A stretch of DNA of 41,639 nt from an uncultured Bacilli bacterium. GTDB taxonomy: Bacteria; Bacillota_I; Bacilli_A; RF39; UBA660. Of the stretch, positions 1,427 to 41,107 are shown in pieces (the stretch's first letter is position 1; each line of letters starts with the position of its first letter). The stretch is from contig CANPYM010000008.1 in NCBI GenBank assembly GCA_947588685.1, positions 1-41,639 of the forward strand. Reading direction: 5' to 3'. Under the pieces are notes generated by a model that was not told the origin of the DNA, did not search any database, and saw only the letters and a program-made list of their open reading frames with translations. A program made the translations under genes and the position numbers.

Positions 1427-3535
1427 CTATAATTGACTGATGGTCGTATCACCTAAAATATGTTTTTGAACTTGTAATAAGTCAAAAGCAGTTACCCTAC
1501 CATCTTTATTTACATCACAAGCTTTAAGATAAGCACCACTTAATTTAGCATCTCCTAAAATATATTTTTGAACTTGTAATAAATCAAGGGCATTTATTTT
1601 ACTATCGCCACTAGCATCACCATAGATTAAAGCTGTATATGTATAGGCGTCACTTCCACTTGTAATAGTAATAGCGTCTCCTGTTGCTAAATATTCACTT
1701 GTTAAGACTTTAGAGCCACGTTTAATCGTTACGGTAGCTTGTGGTTCATATGCTTTGATTTTATTTATAAAATCAGATGCTTTTGTTGTAAGTGTTAAAC
1801 CATTAACGTAATCACCATCTAAGTTGATATTCGTATTTTTAACAATATCACTGATAGCTTTAGATGGACCCGTTGGGGCTTCTCTTTTAACATTAATAGT
1901 ATATGTCTTCTTAGCACCATTTTGAGCTGTTACAACAATTGATACTTGATTATCACCGACATTTAAGCTTTTAGCACCAACACCACTTACTTTAGCATTA
2001 GCATTAATCGTTGTAGCAGCAAATGTTACTGAGCTAACGCTATTTAAAACACTAAATGAATAACTTGTTTTATCACCACTAAAGCCAACGACTGTTTTAG
2101 CTCCACTACCATCATTATATGTTAAAGTTTTTAAATAATTATTAGGGTTACCCGTTTTAGGTAAAGCTGTTGCTGTTGGCATACTTGAATAAACAGGAAT
2201 ATTAAAGGTAAATGGGGCATCTATTAGATTAGCTTTTTTGTATGAAGTGTGACTTTTAACAGCTTCACTTGATGGTGCACCAATATTTTGCATATATTGA
2301 TGCGTATAATTACTATTAGCAGTCTTACCTAAGCCTGTTAAATATTTTTCAATCGTATTCCATTTTTTAAAATAACTAGTATCTTGACCTGCTTTAATAT
2401 AGCCATCAGTTATCCATTTAGCACCACCAATTATAGCTTTTTCTGGTGAAGTCCATGGTCTACCACTACTAGTATCCTTGCCATCCTCACCACCATAAGC
2501 ATAAACTAAAGCTCTCGTTGCTGATTCACCATCAGAACCACTATTAGCGCCAATATTAAAGAAATTATAATAACCAGCTGGATAGTTTTTATTTTTATAG
2601 GTAAAAGCATTACCAGATACGGTCTTATTAGGCGTTGTTCCTGCTCCTACTTCTTGAATAGATAAAGCTGCTAAATAAACGGGATTAATGTTTTCTTGGC
2701 TAGCTGCTGTCATAAAATGATCGGCATACTGGCTAATATAAGCACTACCTAAAACATTTTTAACGGCTTCTAGTGTTTGGAAAGTAGGATTATAAGATAA
2801 AGTTTCAAATTGGAAGATATAAGTATCTGATAAGAAATTACGAGGATCCATATAATAAGCAATGGTATCATAGTTAGCAGCAAACCATGTTGATCCATCC
2901 CAAGGTGTAAACTTATCAGTTTGCCAATTATAATTAGTTTCCGATGTTGATAAATACCCTTGAGTTGAAGCACTAGTTGATTGTATTAAACTTTTCTTAC
3001 CTTTATTTTCGCCTTTAACAGCTGCATCAAAAGTAAGACCCGTATTAATAGCAACAAAGTTCCAGCTAGGATGAATCTCTTTCATTACCGCTAAATGAGG
3101 CCAGTAACTATCTGGAAATCCTTGAGTTTTAAAAGTATTTTTTAAATCCGCTGGAATCCAATCAGTTGTTGTAATATTACGGATATTAGCCGTACATGCC
3201 CATCCTTTGAATGTTTTACCATTATAAATAATGCTAAAATAGCTATAAGTCGTTTTACATTCACTACCGTTACCCGATGTTGGCGCTTTTACTGGCGCTT
3301 TACTTTCAATAACCGTTATATCATCACCATCATCAAGCCAGTACGTTCCTCCTAATTCCTTATAATTTGGCTTACCGCCATTATCAGCATAATAACAATC
3401 ACCGGTTGCAGATGATTTTAATTTACATTTACCTTGCGCAATATATTTAGCTTTATAATCAGCATTTACTTGATAATTAAAGGCGAAAAAAGACGCCATC
3501 AAAATAGCTATTAACAATATATATTTCTTATGCAT
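1427..3535 (-). CDS. secreted N-acetylglucosaminidase with C-terminal dockerin
   Basis: 702 aa from the chosen start. The frame is open further upstream, but this ATG has AGGTGAT three bases before it and avoids overlap with rsmD. A signal peptide (about 1-25) precedes a Cys-containing SH3-like N-terminal region (about 26-120). Next is a long glucosaminidase domain of the LytB/Clostridium type (about 140-400), with the probable catalytic Glu at about 295 in SIQEVG and a YNFFNIGA motif. A cadherin-like beta-sandwich (about 467-562) and a type I dockerin (639-702) follow. The dockerin has two calcium loops, DASGDSKINALD and DVNKDGRVTAFD, each followed by LLQVQK-ILGD. It should cleave GlcNAc-MurNAc bonds in peptidoglycan outside the cell. 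The dockerin suggests it is held by the cohesin-like protein encoded next. An internal LPKTG (about 458-462) is not a sorting signal, because no helix follows. Confidence 0.9.
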   Translation of the reverse strand: MHKKYILLIAILMASFFAFNYQVNADYKAKYIAQGKCKLKSSATGDCYYADNGGKPNYKELGGTYWLDDGDDITVIESKAPVKAPTSGNGSECKTTYSYFSIIYNGKTFKGWACTANIRNITTTDWIPADLKNTFKTQGFPDSYWPHLAVMKEIHPSWNFVAINTGLTFDAAVKGENKGKKSLIQSTSASTQGYLSTSETNYNWQTDKFTPWDGSTWFAANYDTIAYYMDPRNFLSDTYIFQFETLSYNPTFQTLEAVKNVLGSAYISQYADHFMTAASQENINPVYLAALSIQEVGAGTTPNKTVSGNAFTYKNKNYPAGYYNFFNIGANSGSDGESATRALVYAYGGEDGKDTSSGRPWTSPEKAIIGGAKWITDGYIKAGQDTSYFKKWNTIEKYLTGLGKTANSNYTHQYMQNIGAPSSEAVKSHTSYKKANLIDAPFTFNIPVYSSMPTATALPKTGNPNNYLKTLTYNDGSGAKTVVGFSGDKTSYSFSVLNSVSSVTFAATTINANAKVSGVGAKSLNVGDNQVSIVVTAQNGAKKTYTINVKREAPTGPSKAISDIVKNTNINLDGDYVNGLTLTTKASDFINKIKAYEPQATVTIKRGSKVLTSEYLATGDAITITSGSDAYTYTALIYGDASGDSKINALDLLQVQKYILGDAKLSGAYLKACDVNKDGRVTAFDLLQVQKHILGDTTISQL

Positions 3536-3557
3536 CTTATCACCTACCATTAAAAAT

Positions 3558-3566
3558 ATTATAACA
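3558..3566 (-). promoter_or_regulatory. extended -10 promoter of the glucosaminidase gene
   Basis: TGTTATAAT on the minus strand (-10 hexamer at 3558-3563). There is no good -35, as its place is taken by the rsmD terminator. The gene's AGGTGAT ribosome binding site lies at 3539-3545. Confidence 0.6.
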
Positions 3567-3602
3567 AAAAAGAGCAAAGACTTAAACATTACTTTACTCT
3601 TT
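3566..3602 (-). terminator. rsmD terminator
   Basis: The arms at 3592-3602 and 3569-3579 pair over 11 positions with one G-U wobble and a 12-nt loop. A U run follows. The 5' arm begins in the last rsmD codons, and the U run touches the next promoter. Confidence 0.75.
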
Positions 3603-4125
3603 TGTACACAACTAGACACTTATTAGCTAATTTTTTACACTTTATTTGTTCATATTTATCGGTTTTAACGTCTTCCGTCTCATATTCACAGACGATAATT
3701 CCACCACTTGCTAGTAAATCATATTGATAAATTAGATCAATAACACCATTTATAAGATTTAAATGGTATGGTGGATCTAATAAAATTAAATCAAATTGTT
3801 CCTTCTTTTGATGACACTTAATTAAGGCATCAGTATAATTAGACATCATAATTGTAACATCATCCATATTAAGGGTATTCTTTTTTAAAATGTTGATAAC
3901 TTTGGGGTTAACATCGACAAAAAGGCAACTTTTAGCGCCATTTGATAAAGCTTCAATGCCAAGAGCACCACTACCAGCAAATAAATCTAGGACACGTGAT
4001 TCTTTAACATAATTTTGAATTGTCGCAAACATCGACTCTTTAACTCGGTCCATCGTTGGTCGTGTACCATCAATATCAAAGCCTTCTAATTTACGACCTT
4101 TGTATTTACCACTGATAACCCGCAT
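3589..4125 (-). CDS. rsmD: 16S rRNA (guanine966-N2)-methyltransferase RsmD
   Basis: 178 aa, normal family length. It methylates G966 (E. coli numbering) of 16S rRNA using SAM. Visible motifs are MRVISGKYKGRKL at the N-terminus, the SAM-binding LDLFAGSGALGIEAL and the catalytic LLDPPY. It lies beside ylbD and ylbE as in B. subtilis, where rsmD is ylbH. The usual next gene, coaD, is absent and the space is taken by the wall hydrolase. It has its own compact promoter and its own terminator. Confidence 0.95.
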   Translation of the reverse strand: MRVISGKYKGRKLEGFDIDGTRPTMDRVKESMFATIQNYVKESRVLDLFAGSGALGIEALSNGAKSCLFVDVNPKVINILKKNTLNMDDVTIMMSNYTDALIKCHQKKEQFDLILLDPPYHLNLINGVIDLIYQYDLLASGGIIVCEYETEDVKTDKYEQIKCKKLANKCLVVYKRVK

Positions 4126-4149
4126 AAAATCACCATCATCATTATACCA
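4126..4149 (-). promoter_or_regulatory. compact promoter plus ribosome binding site of rsmD
   Basis: TGGTATAAT (extended -10, hexamer 4141-4146) is followed six bases later by GGTGAT (4129-4134), then three bases, then ATG. A start point 7 nt after the -10 would put the mRNA 5' end on the first G of the ribosome binding site. No consensus -35 is visible. Confidence 0.6.
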
Positions 4150-4363
4150 TAGAGCTTAACAAATTACTAATGACATTAAGGGTATCAACCATCTTATTAA
4201 ACTTATCACTAGGTCTTAATTGGTAAGCAGCACGCATTTCTTCTTTAAACTGTTTAAAAGAACTCGGATCTCTAATTAGACGTTTATACCAGATATTATG
4301 TTCTCTTAAATATTTGATATATAAAGGGTCTTGTTTTAAATTAAATTGAACTTCTAACGGCAT
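4142..4363 (-). CDS. ylbE: YlbE-like protein
   Basis: 73 aa, similar in size and composition to B. subtilis YlbE: an LKQDP-YIKYLREH-WYK-L-R-P start and a helical C-terminus. Its function is unknown; the B. subtilis ylb region contains several sporulation-related genes. The start codon overlaps the ylbD stop by one base (TAATG), so the two are translationally coupled. The rsmD promoter lies over the end of this gene. Confidence 0.75.
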   Translation of the reverse strand: MPLEVQFNLKQDPLYIKYLREHNIWYKRLIRDPSSFKQFKEEMRAAYQLRPSDKFNKMVDTLNVISNLLSSMV

Positions 4364-4710
4364 TAATCATCTAAGTGTTGATAGATTGGTCTTGCTTCAT
4401 AAGATTCGTTATTATTACTAGCTGCACTACCAATCGTAAGATCACTTACAACTCCTAAAACTCTTTGAATACTATTAATTGATTCTTGAACAGCATCAAG
4501 ATCAATATTTTTTAAATACCCCATTATATCAATATTATTTGATTTAACATCTTTTTTATCATCTTTTAAATAAGGATCCCAAGCTTTAGTATCATCGCCA
4601 TATAAATCATATATTTCATAAAATCCTTGCCATGTCATCTCCCCTTTTTTAACATAACTAATTAGATGGGGATGACTTTTTACAAAAGCTTTAAAATCTT
4701 CCTTTGCCAT
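4363..4710 (-). CDS. ylbD: YlbD-like putative coat protein family
   Basis: 115 aa, cytoplasmic, with no signal peptide or membrane segment. The N-terminal FKAFVKSHPHL and the TWQGFYEIYDLYGDD segment are typical of YlbD, annotated in Bacillus as a putative spore coat protein. The function here is unknown. It is first gene of a ylbD-ylbE pair with its own compact promoter. The order ylbD-ylbE-rsmD matches B. subtilis and supports the call. Confidence 0.75.
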   Translation of the reverse strand: MAKEDFKAFVKSHPHLISYVKKGEMTWQGFYEIYDLYGDDTKAWDPYLKDDKKDVKSNNIDIMGYLKNIDLDAVQESINSIQRVLGVVSDLTIGSAASNNNESYEARPIYQHLDD

Positions 4711-4731
4711 TATATCACCTATACTATTATA
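4711..4731 (-). promoter_or_regulatory. compact promoter plus ribosome binding site of ylbD
   Basis: TATAAT (4726-4731), six bases, GGTGAT (4714-4719), three bases, ATG. This is the same spacing as for rsmD, parE, pbp and recX. The -10 directly follows the U run of the preceding terminator. Confidence 0.6.
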
Positions 4732-4733
4732 TG

Positions 4734-4759
4734 AAAAAAGGATAGTTAAATAACTATCC
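4734..4759 (-). terminator. terminator after the GH25 muramidase
   Basis: A 9-bp perfect stem (4740-4748 with 4751-4759) is followed by six U on the leftward RNA. It overlaps the stop codon of the muramidase. Confidence 0.85.
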
Positions 4760-5956
4760 CGTGTACATTATATCGATATCGACATCACCATTAATGCCAT
4801 CAATCTGTCCATTACTACACATCTGCCATAATAGATAATCACCTTTATAATTTGTTTTAGATGTATAGTGAGCAAGCCAAGTTGGATATGATGTTTTCAT
4901 CCACATACTTTCTAGGTAGACTTTACTACCGTATAGCATAGCGTCATAGCCTTCTTCTTTTAAGCGGTCCATGAATGCTACTCCAACACTAGTTAGGCCG
5001 TAAAAACTTAATTCATATTCATTAAAATAATTCCATTGTTCCCAGTCAAAGGCAATTGGTAAGTCAATATCATAGCCTTTAATTTGATCGATGACCCATT
5101 CCGCGTCAGCTATGGCCATCTCTTTGCTATCGGCATAAGAATAAAAATATAAACCAACCGGTATCCCATATTTCTTAGCTTCCGTTATATTTCTTTTAAA
5201 CTTACTATCCAAAGCATAATCGCCGTCGGTTCCAATTTTCGTACCAACTCTAATGATGACAAACTCGGCTCCGGCATCTTTTATCTTTTTAAAATCGATA
5301 TCGCCTTGCCATCTTGATACATCAAGGCCAATCTTCGTTTGATCATTTTTATATTCTTTAATAACATCACTAAACTTTGTATGAACTTTAGGAGATGTAC
5401 TATCACTACCAGAAGACGATGTAGGTTCATAGACATTAAGCGTGAAAGGATGGGTAGCGACATTACCACTCTTATCGACCGCTTTAAAAGTTACTTTATA
5501 CTTTCCTACTTTATTGACGTCATACTCTCCTTCAATATAACAATTAGGTTTATTATCAGCATTATCGCCACATAATATTTTATCAATAAAGTTCTTATTC
5601 CCTTTTTTAACATTATATGAACTACTTAGCCAAATTAATGGTTCCACATTATCAACGACATTAATATCAAACGTATGCGTTTTTTTCTTACCCTTTTTAT
5701 CTAAGTAATTTAAAGTTAGCGTTTTAGGTCCAACTTCGGTTGTATCAACAACTTCATCATCGATGATTTCACCATCAATCTCACTAATAAAATCAGATAC
5801 TTTAACATCTTCTAAGAAGGCAACTTCAAGATTTTCTTTAAAGACAATCCGAGTTGGTTCTTCCTTTTTTGAAGTATGCTTAATGGCCACAAAAACACCA
5901 ATTAAAATAGCAATAGCAACAAGAATAGTAACCACAATAATTATTTTCTTTTTCAT
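4754..5956 (-). CDS. membrane-anchored GH25 muramidase (lysozyme)
   Basis: 400 aa. An uncleaved-looking N-terminal membrane helix (about 5-27) is followed by two Ig-like wall or surface domains (about 35-105 and 108-180), a Ser/Thr linker and a GH25 domain (about 205-400). The catalytic domain starts at GLDVSRWQGDIDF, has the acidic active-site strand IAFDWEQW and ends near DGINGDVDIDIMY. It should hydrolyse MurNAc-GlcNAc bonds at the outer membrane face. The start has AAGGAT formed by the end of the upstream gene, 3 bp away. It is the last gene of a run that starts at 10767 and is closed by a terminator. Confidence 0.92.
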   Translation of the reverse strand: MKKKIIIVVTILVAIAILIGVFVAIKHTSKKEEPTRIVFKENLEVAFLEDVKVSDFISEIDGEIIDDEVVDTTEVGPKTLTLNYLDKKGKKKTHTFDINVVDNVEPLIWLSSSYNVKKGNKNFIDKILCGDNADNKPNCYIEGEYDVNKVGKYKVTFKAVDKSGNVATHPFTLNVYEPTSSSGSDSTSPKVHTKFSDVIKEYKNDQTKIGLDVSRWQGDIDFKKIKDAGAEFVIIRVGTKIGTDGDYALDSKFKRNITEAKKYGIPVGLYFYSYADSKEMAIADAEWVIDQIKGYDIDLPIAFDWEQWNYFNEYELSFYGLTSVGVAFMDRLKEEGYDAMLYGSKVYLESMWMKTSYPTWLAHYTSKTNYKGDYLLWQMCSNGQIDGINGDVDIDIMYTG

Positions 5957-37488: not shown

Positions 37489-37515
37489 AAAAAAGAAGAG
37501 ATTACTTCTCTTCTT
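37489..37515 (-). terminator. terminator of the GGDEF gene
   Basis: An 8-bp perfect stem (37493-37500 with 37508-37515) has a 7-nt loop and a U run on the leftward RNA. It overlaps the last codons of the gene. Confidence 0.82.
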
Positions 37516-39541
37516 CATTCATTAATTCTTTATTAGTCCGCATATCTAGAGTTGCTTCATTAATTGCGTCATCAATTGTCTTAATCGCATCACTTATAAT
37601 ACTATAACCGATAGCTGCACCAAAACCATGACTCAAATTTTTAAACTCACGATTTAACTTACGAATGTAACTAACAGCTTGTTTTTCATCATATTCAACC
37701 ATATAGATTAAGAACTCATTACCATCAGTTCTGATAATCTCCGTATTAGCCATTTGGGTTTGAATTAAAATGTTAGCTGCTTCTGTGATAACTTTATCCC
37801 CTTCCTCACGGCCAAAGGAATCGTTAATATAAGCAATATTATTTAAATCAACAACAATGATAATTTGTGGATAGATTTCCGAATCATCCCATTTTTCAAC
37901 ATTATCATTTAAATAAGTCCTGTTCTTTAAAGAAGTTAAGCTATCAATATATTTTAATTTTTCATCTTTACTTAAAGCTTTCTTTTTATGTTTAAAGATA
38001 TACTTAAAGAATTTTTTAATACGGCCCAAGAATTGGAAAATAATAATTAAAGATAAAATGATAACAGCAATAAACAAGAATACGTTTAAGCCTTCATATT
38101 CGTAGGCATTGGCATAGCCCATATCAATGACATCATTAGGATTAATATATTCTAAATAGAAATTAAATAAATCCATAAATGTCTTATTATCCTTATTGAC
38201 AACAAAGCCATAATTTAAAACGTCATCAGCAATATATGTGATATGGAAATTATTTAACTTTCTTGTCTTATAGTATTCATAACTACCTAATTCCATAGCA
38301 ATAATCTTCTTTTTACCAAGTTTACCTTTGTCAAATAAATCTTGATAATTGTCAAAGCTTTTAACTTTTAATTTATTATCTAACAACCATTTTTCAATCT
38401 TACTATCTTTAATTGTTAAAATCTCTTTATCCTTTAAAGAGTTAAGACTATTAATTGTTAAATGTCCACTATTATGAGTTAAAAAGACAATTTGCGTTTG
38501 AATTGGTTTAACTGTTACAGAATCATCTTCACTATGGAAAGACGTACTGTCAAAGTAAAAATCAATTTTCTTATTTTTTAAAGCTTCTTCGAGATCGCTT
38601 AAACTATGATAGAAAGAAGCATACTCCATATCAATATTAGCAAAAGATGCAAAATCTTTAATAATAAAATAATTTGTACCTGTTAAAACACGGTGAGAGG
38701 TATTATCATATATACCTAAATTAGTATAACCATAACGATATATTTTAGAATTTAAATTACTTAATTCTTTTTCAGAGATATTTAGCGCTGTTACATAAGC
38801 ATTTAAAAGATTAGCATAATACTTCTTCGTAAGTTCTGTGTTACTAAACTTATGATACTCCTTAATAATAATCTTTTTTAGCTCTTCATCACCTTTTAAA
38901 CGAAGAGCATAATACCTTTTCATATCACACATTTGGTATGAAAAATGATACTTATTAGTTAAAACATCATTAAGATAAATAGATTTTAAACCGATGAAAG
39001 CATCAATCGTACCAGCACTCATCGCCTCTAACATAGTCTCTTTATTATCAAACTTTATATAGACTAAACCATCACTACCAAGACTATTAATAATCTCATC
39101 AGCATCATCTGGTAGATAACCAATTTTTAAATCTTTTAAGTCTAAAGCTGATGAATAAACATTATTATCCTTAGTAATAACAGCATAATTATCCTCTAAA
39201 ATAGTTGTATCATCATCAGTCAGTTTATCAGTTAAAACAATCCCATAATCACCAGTATAATCGCTATCTAAAGTATAAGCAATCGGATTAATAGTAATTT
39301 TGGTATTATCAGTGAAATAGTCGATGAAATCAAAGAATAAGCCCTTACCTGTTAGGGTCAAAGAAGCAATGTCACTCGGCATATACAAGTCGACATTCAT
39401 ATTCTTATTTTCATTTAAATAACGTTGCTCCGAAGGTGTATAGGCATAATCATCTTTGGAACTAGAAAAATAATAGATTGAACCACCAATGAGTGCGGCC
39501 AGTAAAACAACGCCAATTATTATTAATATTCTTCTTTTCAT
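37502..39541 (-). CDS. membrane sensor with two solute-binding-like domains and a degenerate GGDEF domain
   Basis: 679 aa from the ATG with TAGGAG five bases upstream. An N-terminal membrane helix (about 5-25) is followed by two successive type II solute-binding-like domains outside the cell (about 50-265 and 275-490). A second helix (about 495-520) leads to a cytoplasmic GGDEF domain (about 535-679). The GGDEF fold is clear (DSLTSLKNR, VVDLNNIAYINDSFGREEGD), but the signature is DGNEF (606-610). The first Gly and the metal-binding Asp/Glu are replaced, and no upstream RxxD inhibitory site is seen. It is probably not an active cyclase; it may bind nucleotide or signal by contact. The short gap to the upstream 160-aa gene suggests co-transcription. 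Confidence 0.85.
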   Translation of the reverse strand: MKRRILIIIGVVLLAALIGGSIYYFSSSKDDYAYTPSEQRYLNENKNMNVDLYMPSDIASLTLTGKGLFFDFIDYFTDNTKITINPIAYTLDSDYTGDYGIVLTDKLTDDDTTILEDNYAVITKDNNVYSSALDLKDLKIGYLPDDADEIINSLGSDGLVYIKFDNKETMLEAMSAGTIDAFIGLKSIYLNDVLTNKYHFSYQMCDMKRYYALRLKGDEELKKIIIKEYHKFSNTELTKKYYANLLNAYVTALNISEKELSNLNSKIYRYGYTNLGIYDNTSHRVLTGTNYFIIKDFASFANIDMEYASFYHSLSDLEEALKNKKIDFYFDSTSFHSEDDSVTVKPIQTQIVFLTHNSGHLTINSLNSLKDKEILTIKDSKIEKWLLDNKLKVKSFDNYQDLFDKGKLGKKKIIAMELGSYEYYKTRKLNNFHITYIADDVLNYGFVVNKDNKTFMDLFNFYLEYINPNDVIDMGYANAYEYEGLNVFLFIAVIILSLIIIFQFLGRIKKFFKYIFKHKKKALSKDEKLKYIDSLTSLKNRTYLNDNVEKWDDSEIYPQIIIVVDLNNIAYINDSFGREEGDKVITEAANILIQTQMANTEIIRTDGNEFLIYMVEYDEKQAVSYIRKLNREFKNLSHGFGAAIGYSIISDAIKTIDDAINEATLDMRTNKELMNEEEK

Positions 39542-39552
39542 ATAACTCCTAA

Positions 39553-40035
39553 CTACCAAACAAAGTCTTCATTTGTCTTGCCATCAATTTCCTTATGATG
39601 GGTTCCGATTTGTGGATAACTTTCGCTTTCTTTCTTATCAGATTTAACCATTAGTTGAAGGTCATAATATTTCTTTTCTTCGTCAGTGAAAACGGCAAGT
39701 ATCTCTTTACCCATTTTTTTAACGTCAGAAAAATTGGTAGTATCAGCTACTTCGACAATAATATCAACTAAATTACATTTAACTTCAAAAGTTTTAAACT
39801 TATAACCATCATATTTTTTAACTACTTCTTTGATAGTATCTTTGCGGTCTTCGGCAATTGGATGATTAACCGTTGTCTCGCATCGATCACCATAAACACT
39901 TTCCTTAGTATTAGGTATTAAATAAGTAATAATACGATATGAAAATATTATTAAGGCAATTAAAATAACTAAAACGATGCCCAAAATAATACATTTCTTT
40001 TTATGTTTTTTAAAAAAATTTTTAACTTTGTCCAT
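39553..40035 (-). CDS. small membrane-anchored protein of unknown function
   Basis: 160 aa; not recognised. A Lys-rich cytoplasmic start (DKVKNFFKKHKKK) and one membrane helix (about 15-40) precede an extracellular domain of about 105 residues. That domain has two Cys (CETTVNH and FEVKCNL) and a strand-rich core (FKTFEVKCNLVDIIVEVAD), and the C-terminus is YPQIGTHHKEIDG. It sits between the CamS-like gene and the GGDEF sensor with its own likely promoter (TATAAT at 40053-40058, then GAGGTGC). It may be an accessory part of the sensor, by position only. Confidence 0.75.
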   Translation of the reverse strand: MDKVKNFFKKHKKKCIILGIVLVILIALIIFSYRIITYLIPNTKESVYGDRCETTVNHPIAEDRKDTIKEVVKKYDGYKFKTFEVKCNLVDIIVEVADTTNFSDVKKMGKEILAVFTDEEKKYYDLQLMVKSDKKESESYPQIGTHHKEIDGKTNEDFVW

Positions 40036-40069: not shown

Positions 40070-41107
40070 TTAGTAAATAAATATGTCAGTTGATGTTTCT
40101 CCCTCTTCCTTTACAATATAAGCCTTTACTTCATTGATGGCTTTTACTTCCGTAACAACTTTAACATCTTTAAAATAACTAGCCATGTTTTCACTTAAAA
40201 ATTGACTAATGTATAAAAGTTCACCATAGCTATAATAACTTTTAGTGATAGTGATGTCAAGTTTCGATAAATGATTACCACTATAGTAGCCTAATCCTGA
40301 TACGTACATTGTTTTATCATAATTGTACATTTTCGTTGTAAAGTTTTTAAAACTGTTATAATTTTTGGTATCTAATTTCTTGACACTATCATTATTCATA
40401 TAATAATTTTTTTGATCAAGATACGAAAACGCAATATTAGTCTCGTTAGTAACACCATAATATAGGTAGTTACCACTCGTATTAGATTCAGGACTAGCTT
40501 CTACATATAAAGCAACCATAATCGGAATATTATCTAAAGAAAAGTTCTCCCTTAAATATTTAACTAATTCCGTCGCTTTCGTTTTACCAATATCTATAAC
40601 TTTATTTTGGTTGATGGTAACGTAGTTGCCATCAGAACCATATCCTTGATAAGGATTTAGGATTAAACCCAAACTTAAACCTTTTATTTGGCCTTCTTTA
40701 TCTAGGAAGTTTTTTTCATAAACGCCAACAACGACTGTCGGCTTAATCTTTTTACCACTGATTGTCATATCAGCAATATTATTTAAATTATCACGATTAA
40801 GAAGTGTCCGCAAACGGCTTTCCGATAAATATTGTCCTTCTTGGTAATAATAATCCGTAATAGCGAAGACATTAGAAGAAATTTGAATTAAGTCTTTTTC
40901 AACTTTATTAATGTCATAATCAACGACATTACTACTAACCACGTAATTATTGCCAACCCCTTTTTTATATGGCATATAAATTGTATAATAGTCATCATTA
41001 TACTTAAAAGAATAAGTCGTATCTGATGGCTCTTCTACTTCTTTTTTAGAACAACCAGCAATGGCAATAATTGATAGTAACAAAAATAATATTTTTATTT
41101 TCTTCAT
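40070..41107 (-). CDS. CamS-family lipoprotein
   Basis: 345 aa. The signal peptide ends in a lipobox (IAIAGC, Cys19). The body carries CamS-like features: YLSESRLRTLLNRDN, then a region with LSLGLILNPYQGY, a K-ATELVKYLRENF helix and IPIMVALYVEASPESNTSGNYLYYG, and two halves of similar fold. CamS proteins are surface lipoproteins whose signal peptides yield pheromone peptides in staphylococci and enterococci. The function of the mature protein is unclear, and pheromone activity here is not implied. Confidence 0.8.
   Translation of the reverse strand: MKKIKILFLLLSIIAIAGCSKKEVEEPSDTTYSFKYNDDYYTIYMPYKKGVGNNYVVSSNVVDYDINKVEKDLIQISSNVFAITDYYYQEGQYLSESRLRTLLNRDNLNNIADMTISGKKIKPTVVVGVYEKNFLDKEGQIKGLSLGLILNPYQGYGSDGNYVTINQNKVIDIGKTKATELVKYLRENFSLDNIPIMVALYVEASPESNTSGNYLYYGVTNETNIAFSYLDQKNYYMNNDSVKKLDTKNYNSFKNFTTKMYNYDKTMYVSGLGYYSGNHLSKLDITITKSYYSYGELLYISQFLSENMASYFKDVKVVTEVKAINEVKAYIVKEEGETSTDIFIY

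Follow-up and report, generated by a model that had tools for sequence, protein, structure and literature searches.

Among described systems, the nearest comparison for the protein considered here is CdgH of Vibrio cholerae, a cyclase of the c-di-GMP system with tandem periplasmic solute-binding domains. The CdgH report describes an outer part that is dimeric and changes shape with ligand, and a first outer domain that binds L-arginine, with an Arg holding the carboxylate (PMC5431781). GdpS of the staphylococci provides another point of reference, being the sole GGDEF protein in bacteria with no EAL, HD-GYP or PilZ proteins. It carries a conserved GGDEF domain, and its function was reported to be independent of c-di-GMP, the recombinant protein was without cyclase activity, and the regulation seemed independent of protein-coding function (PMC9714401). 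GdpS thus illustrates how a GGDEF gene that stands alone in its genome can be of consequence in the absence of c-di-GMP. The GGDEF domain of PA0285 is described as binding GTP without cyclase activity in vitro (PMC10874727), and a further source describes GGDEF proteins that act as c-di-GMP receptors (PMC7996900).

The locus to be compared with these systems comes from an uncultured Bacilli bacterium and lies in a stretch of 41,639 nucleotides (contig CANPYM010000008.1 of assembly GCA_947588685.1), referred to here as the window. The open reading frame of the sensor runs on the minus strand and spans 37502-39559; translation more probably begins at the ATG at 39541, which is preceded by AGGAG and gives 679 codons (Table 1). 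A sequence-only reading of this DNA had proposed two tandem extracellular solute-binding-like domains, fused through one helix to a GGDEF domain with the broken signature DGNEF at 37712-37726. The signature was confirmed at that position, and the two outer domains were borne out by profile matches among the orthologues, by the AlphaFold2 model and by Foldseek. The single helix held up in part: the second helix does join the outside to the GGDEF domain, but the protein has two membrane helices in total.

Table 1. Features of the sensor locus, with positions in the window
Feature	Coordinates	Strand	Evidence or conservation
Sensor gene (TM, two Venus-flytrap domains, TM, degenerate GGDEF; 679 codons + stop)	37502..39541	minus	ORF, Pfam, AlphaFold2 model
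N-terminal membrane anchor helix, residues 2-32	39446..39538	minus	AlphaFold2 helix and hydrophobic sequence
Outer solute-binding-like domain 1, residues ~36-252	38786..39436	minus	AlphaFold2 model; matches to BvgS 4q0c and EvgS 9ilw together with domain 2
Outer solute-binding-like domain 2, residues ~266-480	38102..38746	minus	VIA-align to 7ejg; profile matches to SBP structures
Second membrane helix, residues 485-517	37991..38089	minus	AlphaFold2 model
GGDEF domain, residues 531-673	37523..37951	minus	PF00990
D565 = PleD D327 (other metal-binding acid)	37847..37849	minus	D in 127/137 orthologues
N573 = PleD N335 (guanine contact)	37823..37825	minus	kept in 137/137
D582 = PleD D344 (guanine contact)	37796..37798	minus	kept in 136/137
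Signature DGNEF, residues 606-610; third residue Asn replaces metal-binding Asp/Glu	37712..37726	minus	ORF translation, orthologue alignment
K671 = PleD K442 (phosphate contact)	37529..37531	minus	K in 135/137, R in 2
Small single-pass membrane protein, 160 aa, constant upstream partner	39553..40035	minus	133/133 adjacency; model
CamS-family lipoprotein, next upstream in window; not assigned to the unit	40070..41107	minus	PF07537, E 9.3e-49

Membership of the GGDEF superfamily follows from the match to PF00990 (residues 531-673, E 2.6e-17, 63.5 bits against a cut-off of 23.8). None of the solute-binding Pfam models reaches E 1 against the window protein alone, and SBP_bac_3 is matched at E<=0.1 by 27 of the 57 orthologues in the alignment, the strongest match having E 4.9e-7. 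The AlphaFold2 model, made from a 57-sequence alignment (mean pLDDT 85.1, pTM 0.68), has two clam-shell outer domains; its pLDDT falls below 50 near the beginning of the GGDEF domain (residues 519-542 and 544-546). Against the PDB, Foldseek places the tandem flytrap domains of BvgS (4q0c, E 1.9e-21, aligned over sensor residues 31-480) and EvgS (9ilw, E 8e-21) at the top, followed by SBD1-SBD2 of GlnPQ (6h30) and then by 5gzs (E 4.4e-17), and domain 2 aligns with 7ejg over 224 residues (VIA-align Z 22.3, rmsd 2.8). The sensor kinases BvgS and EvgS, the best structural matches of the outer part, share the tandem domains, whereas their output is a histidine kinase and that of the sensor is a GGDEF domain. 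The entry 5gzs is titled 'Structure of VC protein', and our guess is that it is CdgH. The tandem-PBPb architecture of the CdgH type is present, with two outer solute-binding domains and a transmembrane helix ahead of one GGDEF domain; CdgH is described as a cyclase, whereas the metal ligand of the sensor is lost. In amino-acid-binding solute-binding proteins of family 3, a conserved Arg is expected to hold the carboxylate of the ligand. At positions 328-351 of domain 2, mapped by eye in 134 rows, Arg is outside the four commonest residues at each position, in contrast to the carboxylate-holding Arg described for domain 1 of CdgH.

The order that was sampled, through 146 genomes, is presumably RF39 of the GTDB. 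One study places RF39 in the Bacilli as an uncultivated order whose genome is highly reduced and lacks fatty-acid synthesis (PMC6784871). Matches to the sensor were found in 139 of the 146 genomes, and since the match in G001 belongs to another GGDEF protein, whose signature is intact, a full-length orthologue is present in 138; one of these (in G018) ends before the signature, leaving 137 signatures that can be read. DGNEF accounts for 104 of them, and the others are NGNEF (11), SGNEF (7), NGDEF (6), DGTEF (4), DGNEY (3), SGDEF (1) and GGDEF (1). The first residue is thus D in 111, N in 17, S in 8 and G in 1, while the third is N in 125, T in 4 and D in 8. The acidic third residue expected of an active diguanylate cyclase is therefore absent from the window protein and present in 8 of 137 orthologues; both metal acids occur as Asp in four, and D327 is combined with Asn at position 3 in 119. 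With N or T at the third position in 129 of 137, the DGNEF of the window protein is not a case of one-off decay, and on this alignment the loss of the metal site is a conserved trait of the orthologues, larger than an observation on a single protein. The sequence-only reading had counted both the first Gly and the metal-binding residue as losses that argue against cyclase activity. The second of these gains weight from its conservation, but the loss of the first Gly argues little by itself; there are active cyclases with A or S at that position.

In the sensor tree (134 rows, four of the 138 having been dropped as cut or short; SH-aLRT only and no outgroup), the Asp bearers at position 3 fall in several places among the Asn bearers. 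The single orthologue that reads GGDEF (L069, from genome G136, 2995-5004), in which D327 is kept, sits on the longest end branch, of length 1.02. Given this scatter, and the position of the GGDEF-reading protein, Asn at position 3 looks ancestral. An orthologue with an intact signature had been named as something that would refute the sequence-only reading, and one does occur among the 137; because it exists, and because four of 137 carry both metal-binding acids, some of these family members may be active. L069 itself could represent a return to activity.

Residue correspondences are given in what we take to be PleD numbering, which the aligned range 282-381 of 2wb4 fits. The first metal Asp and the guanine contacts expected of an active cyclase are present in the window protein (D565, N573, D582), and the equivalents of PleD R366, G369 and E371 are each kept in all 137 orthologues. 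The position of the phosphate-contacting K332 varies, with K in 66 of 137 and A in the window protein. The I-site motif RxxD, the site of product inhibition, expected five residues before the signature, is absent: all 137 orthologues have S or T in place of D362, and only five have R at the R359 position. The GGDEF domain is also the most constrained part of the protein, with a mean entropy of 1.21 bits and at least 95% identity at 39 of 147 positions, compared to 2.24-2.30 bits and 9 of 432 positions (5/217 and 4/215) in the two outer domains (134 rows throughout). With pocket residues conserved and conservation concentrated in this domain, the sequence pattern argues that selection is maintaining the nucleotide pocket minus one metal ligand. 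By eye, residues 645-647 read G-x-S where the usual GGDEF core motif is S-x-G; identity across the family is >=95% at both G645 and S647.

The genome that contains the window (1.157 Mb in 30 contigs, 88.7% complete) has one GGDEF match, which is the sensor, and no EAL or PilZ match, a domain count that the sequence-only reading had called for. Across the 146 genomes, GGDEF is found in 139, EAL in 12 and PilZ in none, with at least two GGDEF matches in 30 genomes, one in 109 and none in seven. The sensor is the sole match in 108 genomes (108 of the 109 with a single match), and in 107 of them EAL is lacking as well, the exception being G083 with one EAL. As a separate observation, G006, G012, G036 and G081 encode proteins of ~410-440 aa in which a GGDEF match is followed by a weak EAL match; these may be degenerate GGDEF-EAL proteins. 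The window sensor resembles GdpS in being the only GGDEF protein of a genome with neither EAL nor PilZ, but GdpS is said to have a conserved GGDEF domain where the sensor has DGNEF. To our knowledge, GdpS has no tandem flytrap domains. A likeness to the PA0285 GGDEF domain would lie in binding GTP without cyclising it, which for the sensor is proposed from its residues; the PA0285 domain is attached to an EAL phosphodiesterase, whereas the sensor has no EAL.

These data bear on several alternative explanations. One might suppose that the sensor still works as a diguanylate cyclase despite its unusual signature and supplies a c-di-GMP pathway that has been reduced, because D327, N335, D344, R366 and E371 are kept, eight of 137 orthologues have Asp at position 3 (one of them reading GGDEF), and 30 genomes have at least two GGDEF matches. 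This seems quite unlikely to us, given N or T at the metal-binding position in 129 of 137, the missing inhibition site, and the scarcity of EAL (12/146) and PilZ (0/146). The absence of RxxD also bears on the idea of a degenerate GGDEF domain that binds c-di-GMP through the I-site. Although such receptors are described, as cited above, the motif is missing here (S or T at the D362 position in every orthologue, R at the R359 position in five), and the 107 genomes in which the sensor is the only GGDEF match and EAL is absent have no obvious source of c-di-GMP; we regard this explanation as very unlikely indeed.

An enzyme of the cyclase fold with new chemistry, in which position 1 has taken over the acid of position 3 (DGN for GGD) and GTP is converted to another product or hydrolysed, would fit Asp at position 1 in 111 and Asn at position 3 in 125 of 137 orthologues, along with the strong constraint and the retention of D327 and the pocket. 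However, an acid at position 1 is not required, since 17 orthologues have N there, eight have S and one has G. We know of no precedent for such a shift and consider it unlikely. The GGDEF domain could instead be a structural remnant, either serving only to dimerise the receptor or on its way to being lost as the genome shrinks, as the small genomes (1.16 Mb for that of the window) and the drift at K332 might suggest. Decay would strike the GGDEF domain first, whereas this is the best conserved domain by far, with nucleotide-pocket residues among the invariant ones, and a remnant of this kind is rather improbable.

The comparison of gene neighbours covers 136 loci out of 138, L138 and L139 being left out as cut. 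A same-strand protein of ~157 aa lies directly upstream of the sensor in all 133 loci with sequence there (the other three, L024, L126 and L137, begin at contig edges on the upstream side), and in 124 of these 133 no more than 30 nt separate its stop from the sensor ATG. The model of this small protein (pLDDT 93.9) consists of one N-terminal helix and an outer alpha/beta domain, and a Foldseek search with it returned nothing under E 0.001. The outer domain is similar to CamS structures over their C-terminal half (Z 8.4-8.5), but an identity as a CamS paralogue is not proposed, since the likeness is one of fold only, with a probability of 0.6% in a profile comparison with the CamS of the window. 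Weak small-protein matches in G029 and G043 were dismissed as chance; no small-protein, YihY or sensor profile match occurs there.

On the downstream side, 135 loci have sequence to compare (L025, with only 125 nt, was left out); a YihY/BrkB membrane protein (PF03631, TIGR00765) directly follows the sensor in 127 of them, and starts <=30 nt from the sensor stop in 106 of the 127. The eight remaining loci include the window and its three genus mates, and in all eight genomes YihY is on another contig; YihY is therefore not an obligate operon partner of the sensor. In four of five stretches examined (L293:1755-5918 on contig C1 of G000, L294, L295 and L297), the displaced YihY stands beside apparent nucleoside phosphorylase genes, which look like pyrimidine- and/or purine-nucleoside phosphorylases. 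In the genome of the window, the phosphorylase genes next to YihY were named by family search, with an adenosine deaminase also there, and a nucleoside-related role for YihY could be envisaged. We take YhjD to be a member of the YihY/BrkB family. YhjD has been linked to LPS transport in E. coli (PMC3219608), whereas the sensor-bearing bacteria are Bacilli. In the window itself, RecX follows the sensor and the CamS lipoprotein precedes the small protein; an LtaS-like protein is found downstream in 40 of 94 loci that have at least 2.5 kb of downstream sequence. The gatB gene was rejected as a flank marker, being single copy and adjoining the sensor in only some genomes. Loci L233-L242, with one match per genome searched, point to two diverged GatB types in the order, one beside the sensor and one elsewhere. 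Searches of the window found no Rfam families, no defence families were found, and a promoter/terminator scan gave no terminator-like site on the minus strand of the stretch.

The 80 named loci are mostly from uncultured Bacilli, with Mollicutes, Firmicutes, Erysipelotrichaceae, Ca. Coprosoma and Ca. Pelethosoma as other labels; the patterns used to scan them contained the signature, which makes them unusable for signature counts. In-frame stops or a changed code were considered for named loci with short ORFs and rejected for the seven that were read through; the truncated ones among them are open upstream and fit GTG/TTG starts. In a class-wide search of 395 genomes, the GGDEF end alone aligned outside the sensor family among the matches listed, in some cases with a short stretch before it. 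Eight GGDEF proteins outside the family (from 18 stretches) have other N termini, and seven of them have an intact signature; in the eighth the motif pattern matched a different stretch. YihY (PF03631) is missing from ten of the 146 genomes, namely the eight without the sensor plus G018 and G069, where the sensor gene is cut by or at a contig end. Joint loss of the sensor, the small protein and YihY was nonetheless rejected as a sign of functional linkage, because 8/146 is about what chance misses would give at ~90-97% completeness and neighbouring genes vanish together in gaps. In an RpoB tree of 24 genomes, the seven placed genomes that lack the sensor need seven separate losses, and a masked stretch is present in G001. 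In full-text literature, which subscription papers mostly lie outside, no paper on RF39 and GGDEF was found, nor was a degenerate GGDEF in reduced-genome uncultured Bacilli seen among the matches listed.

The interpretation that we favour, with a probability of roughly 0.6, is that the sensor is a transmembrane receptor whose catalytically silent, probably GTP-binding pseudo-diguanylate cyclase domain relays an outside signal by protein contact. Because the metal residue is lost as a conserved trait while the pocket residues are kept, the earlier suggestion of ligand sensing followed by GTP binding or protein contact appears the best available, and is partly supported. In this mechanism, the two tandem Venus-flytrap domains, along with the small membrane protein, would detect an extracellular or envelope cue. 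By extension from what is described for CdgH (PMC5431781), the outer domains would dimerise and move on ligand binding, and the second helix would transmit the change to the GGDEF domain. That domain, with its GTP pocket but lacking the metal ligand needed for c-di-GMP synthesis, would, probably with GTP bound, switch a partner protein by dimerisation or docking. Gene order suggests the usually adjacent YihY/BrkB membrane protein as the best candidate. This interpretation is favoured by the nesting of Asp bearers among Asn bearers, by pocket residues kept in 135-137 of 137 orthologues without RxxD, by the strong constraint on the GGDEF domain, by a receptor present in 138 of 146 genomes while EAL is rare and PilZ absent, and by the constant small protein and the short spacings to it and to YihY. 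On the other side, four orthologues keep both metal acids and one reads GGDEF, D327 persists in 127 of 137 orthologues although a purely structural role would demand less, K332 is variable, and YihY is displaced in eight genomes, that of the window included.

Since nearly every genome sampled retains this receptor, its broken enzyme domain probably has some other function in signalling. A wider proposal is arguable but doubtful: that these proteins form an order-wide receptor class, in which the cyclase domain has become a relay that reads GTP and controls, by direct contact, an envelope transporter of the YihY type (with an LtaS-like polymerase encoded nearby in some loci), c-di-GMP having otherwise been mostly given up. 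Degenerate GGDEF domains are usually met singly, beside working cyclases, and judged inactive protein by protein. Here, the loss of the metal site looks fixed across an order of small-genome bacteria, in what is usually the only GGDEF domain, which is strongly constrained and has an unvarying gene neighbour, so that a GGDEF role without c-di-GMP could be tested on a clean case. The sensor also offers a way into the roles of YihY, an envelope gene yet to be characterised, and of a small membrane protein without a family.
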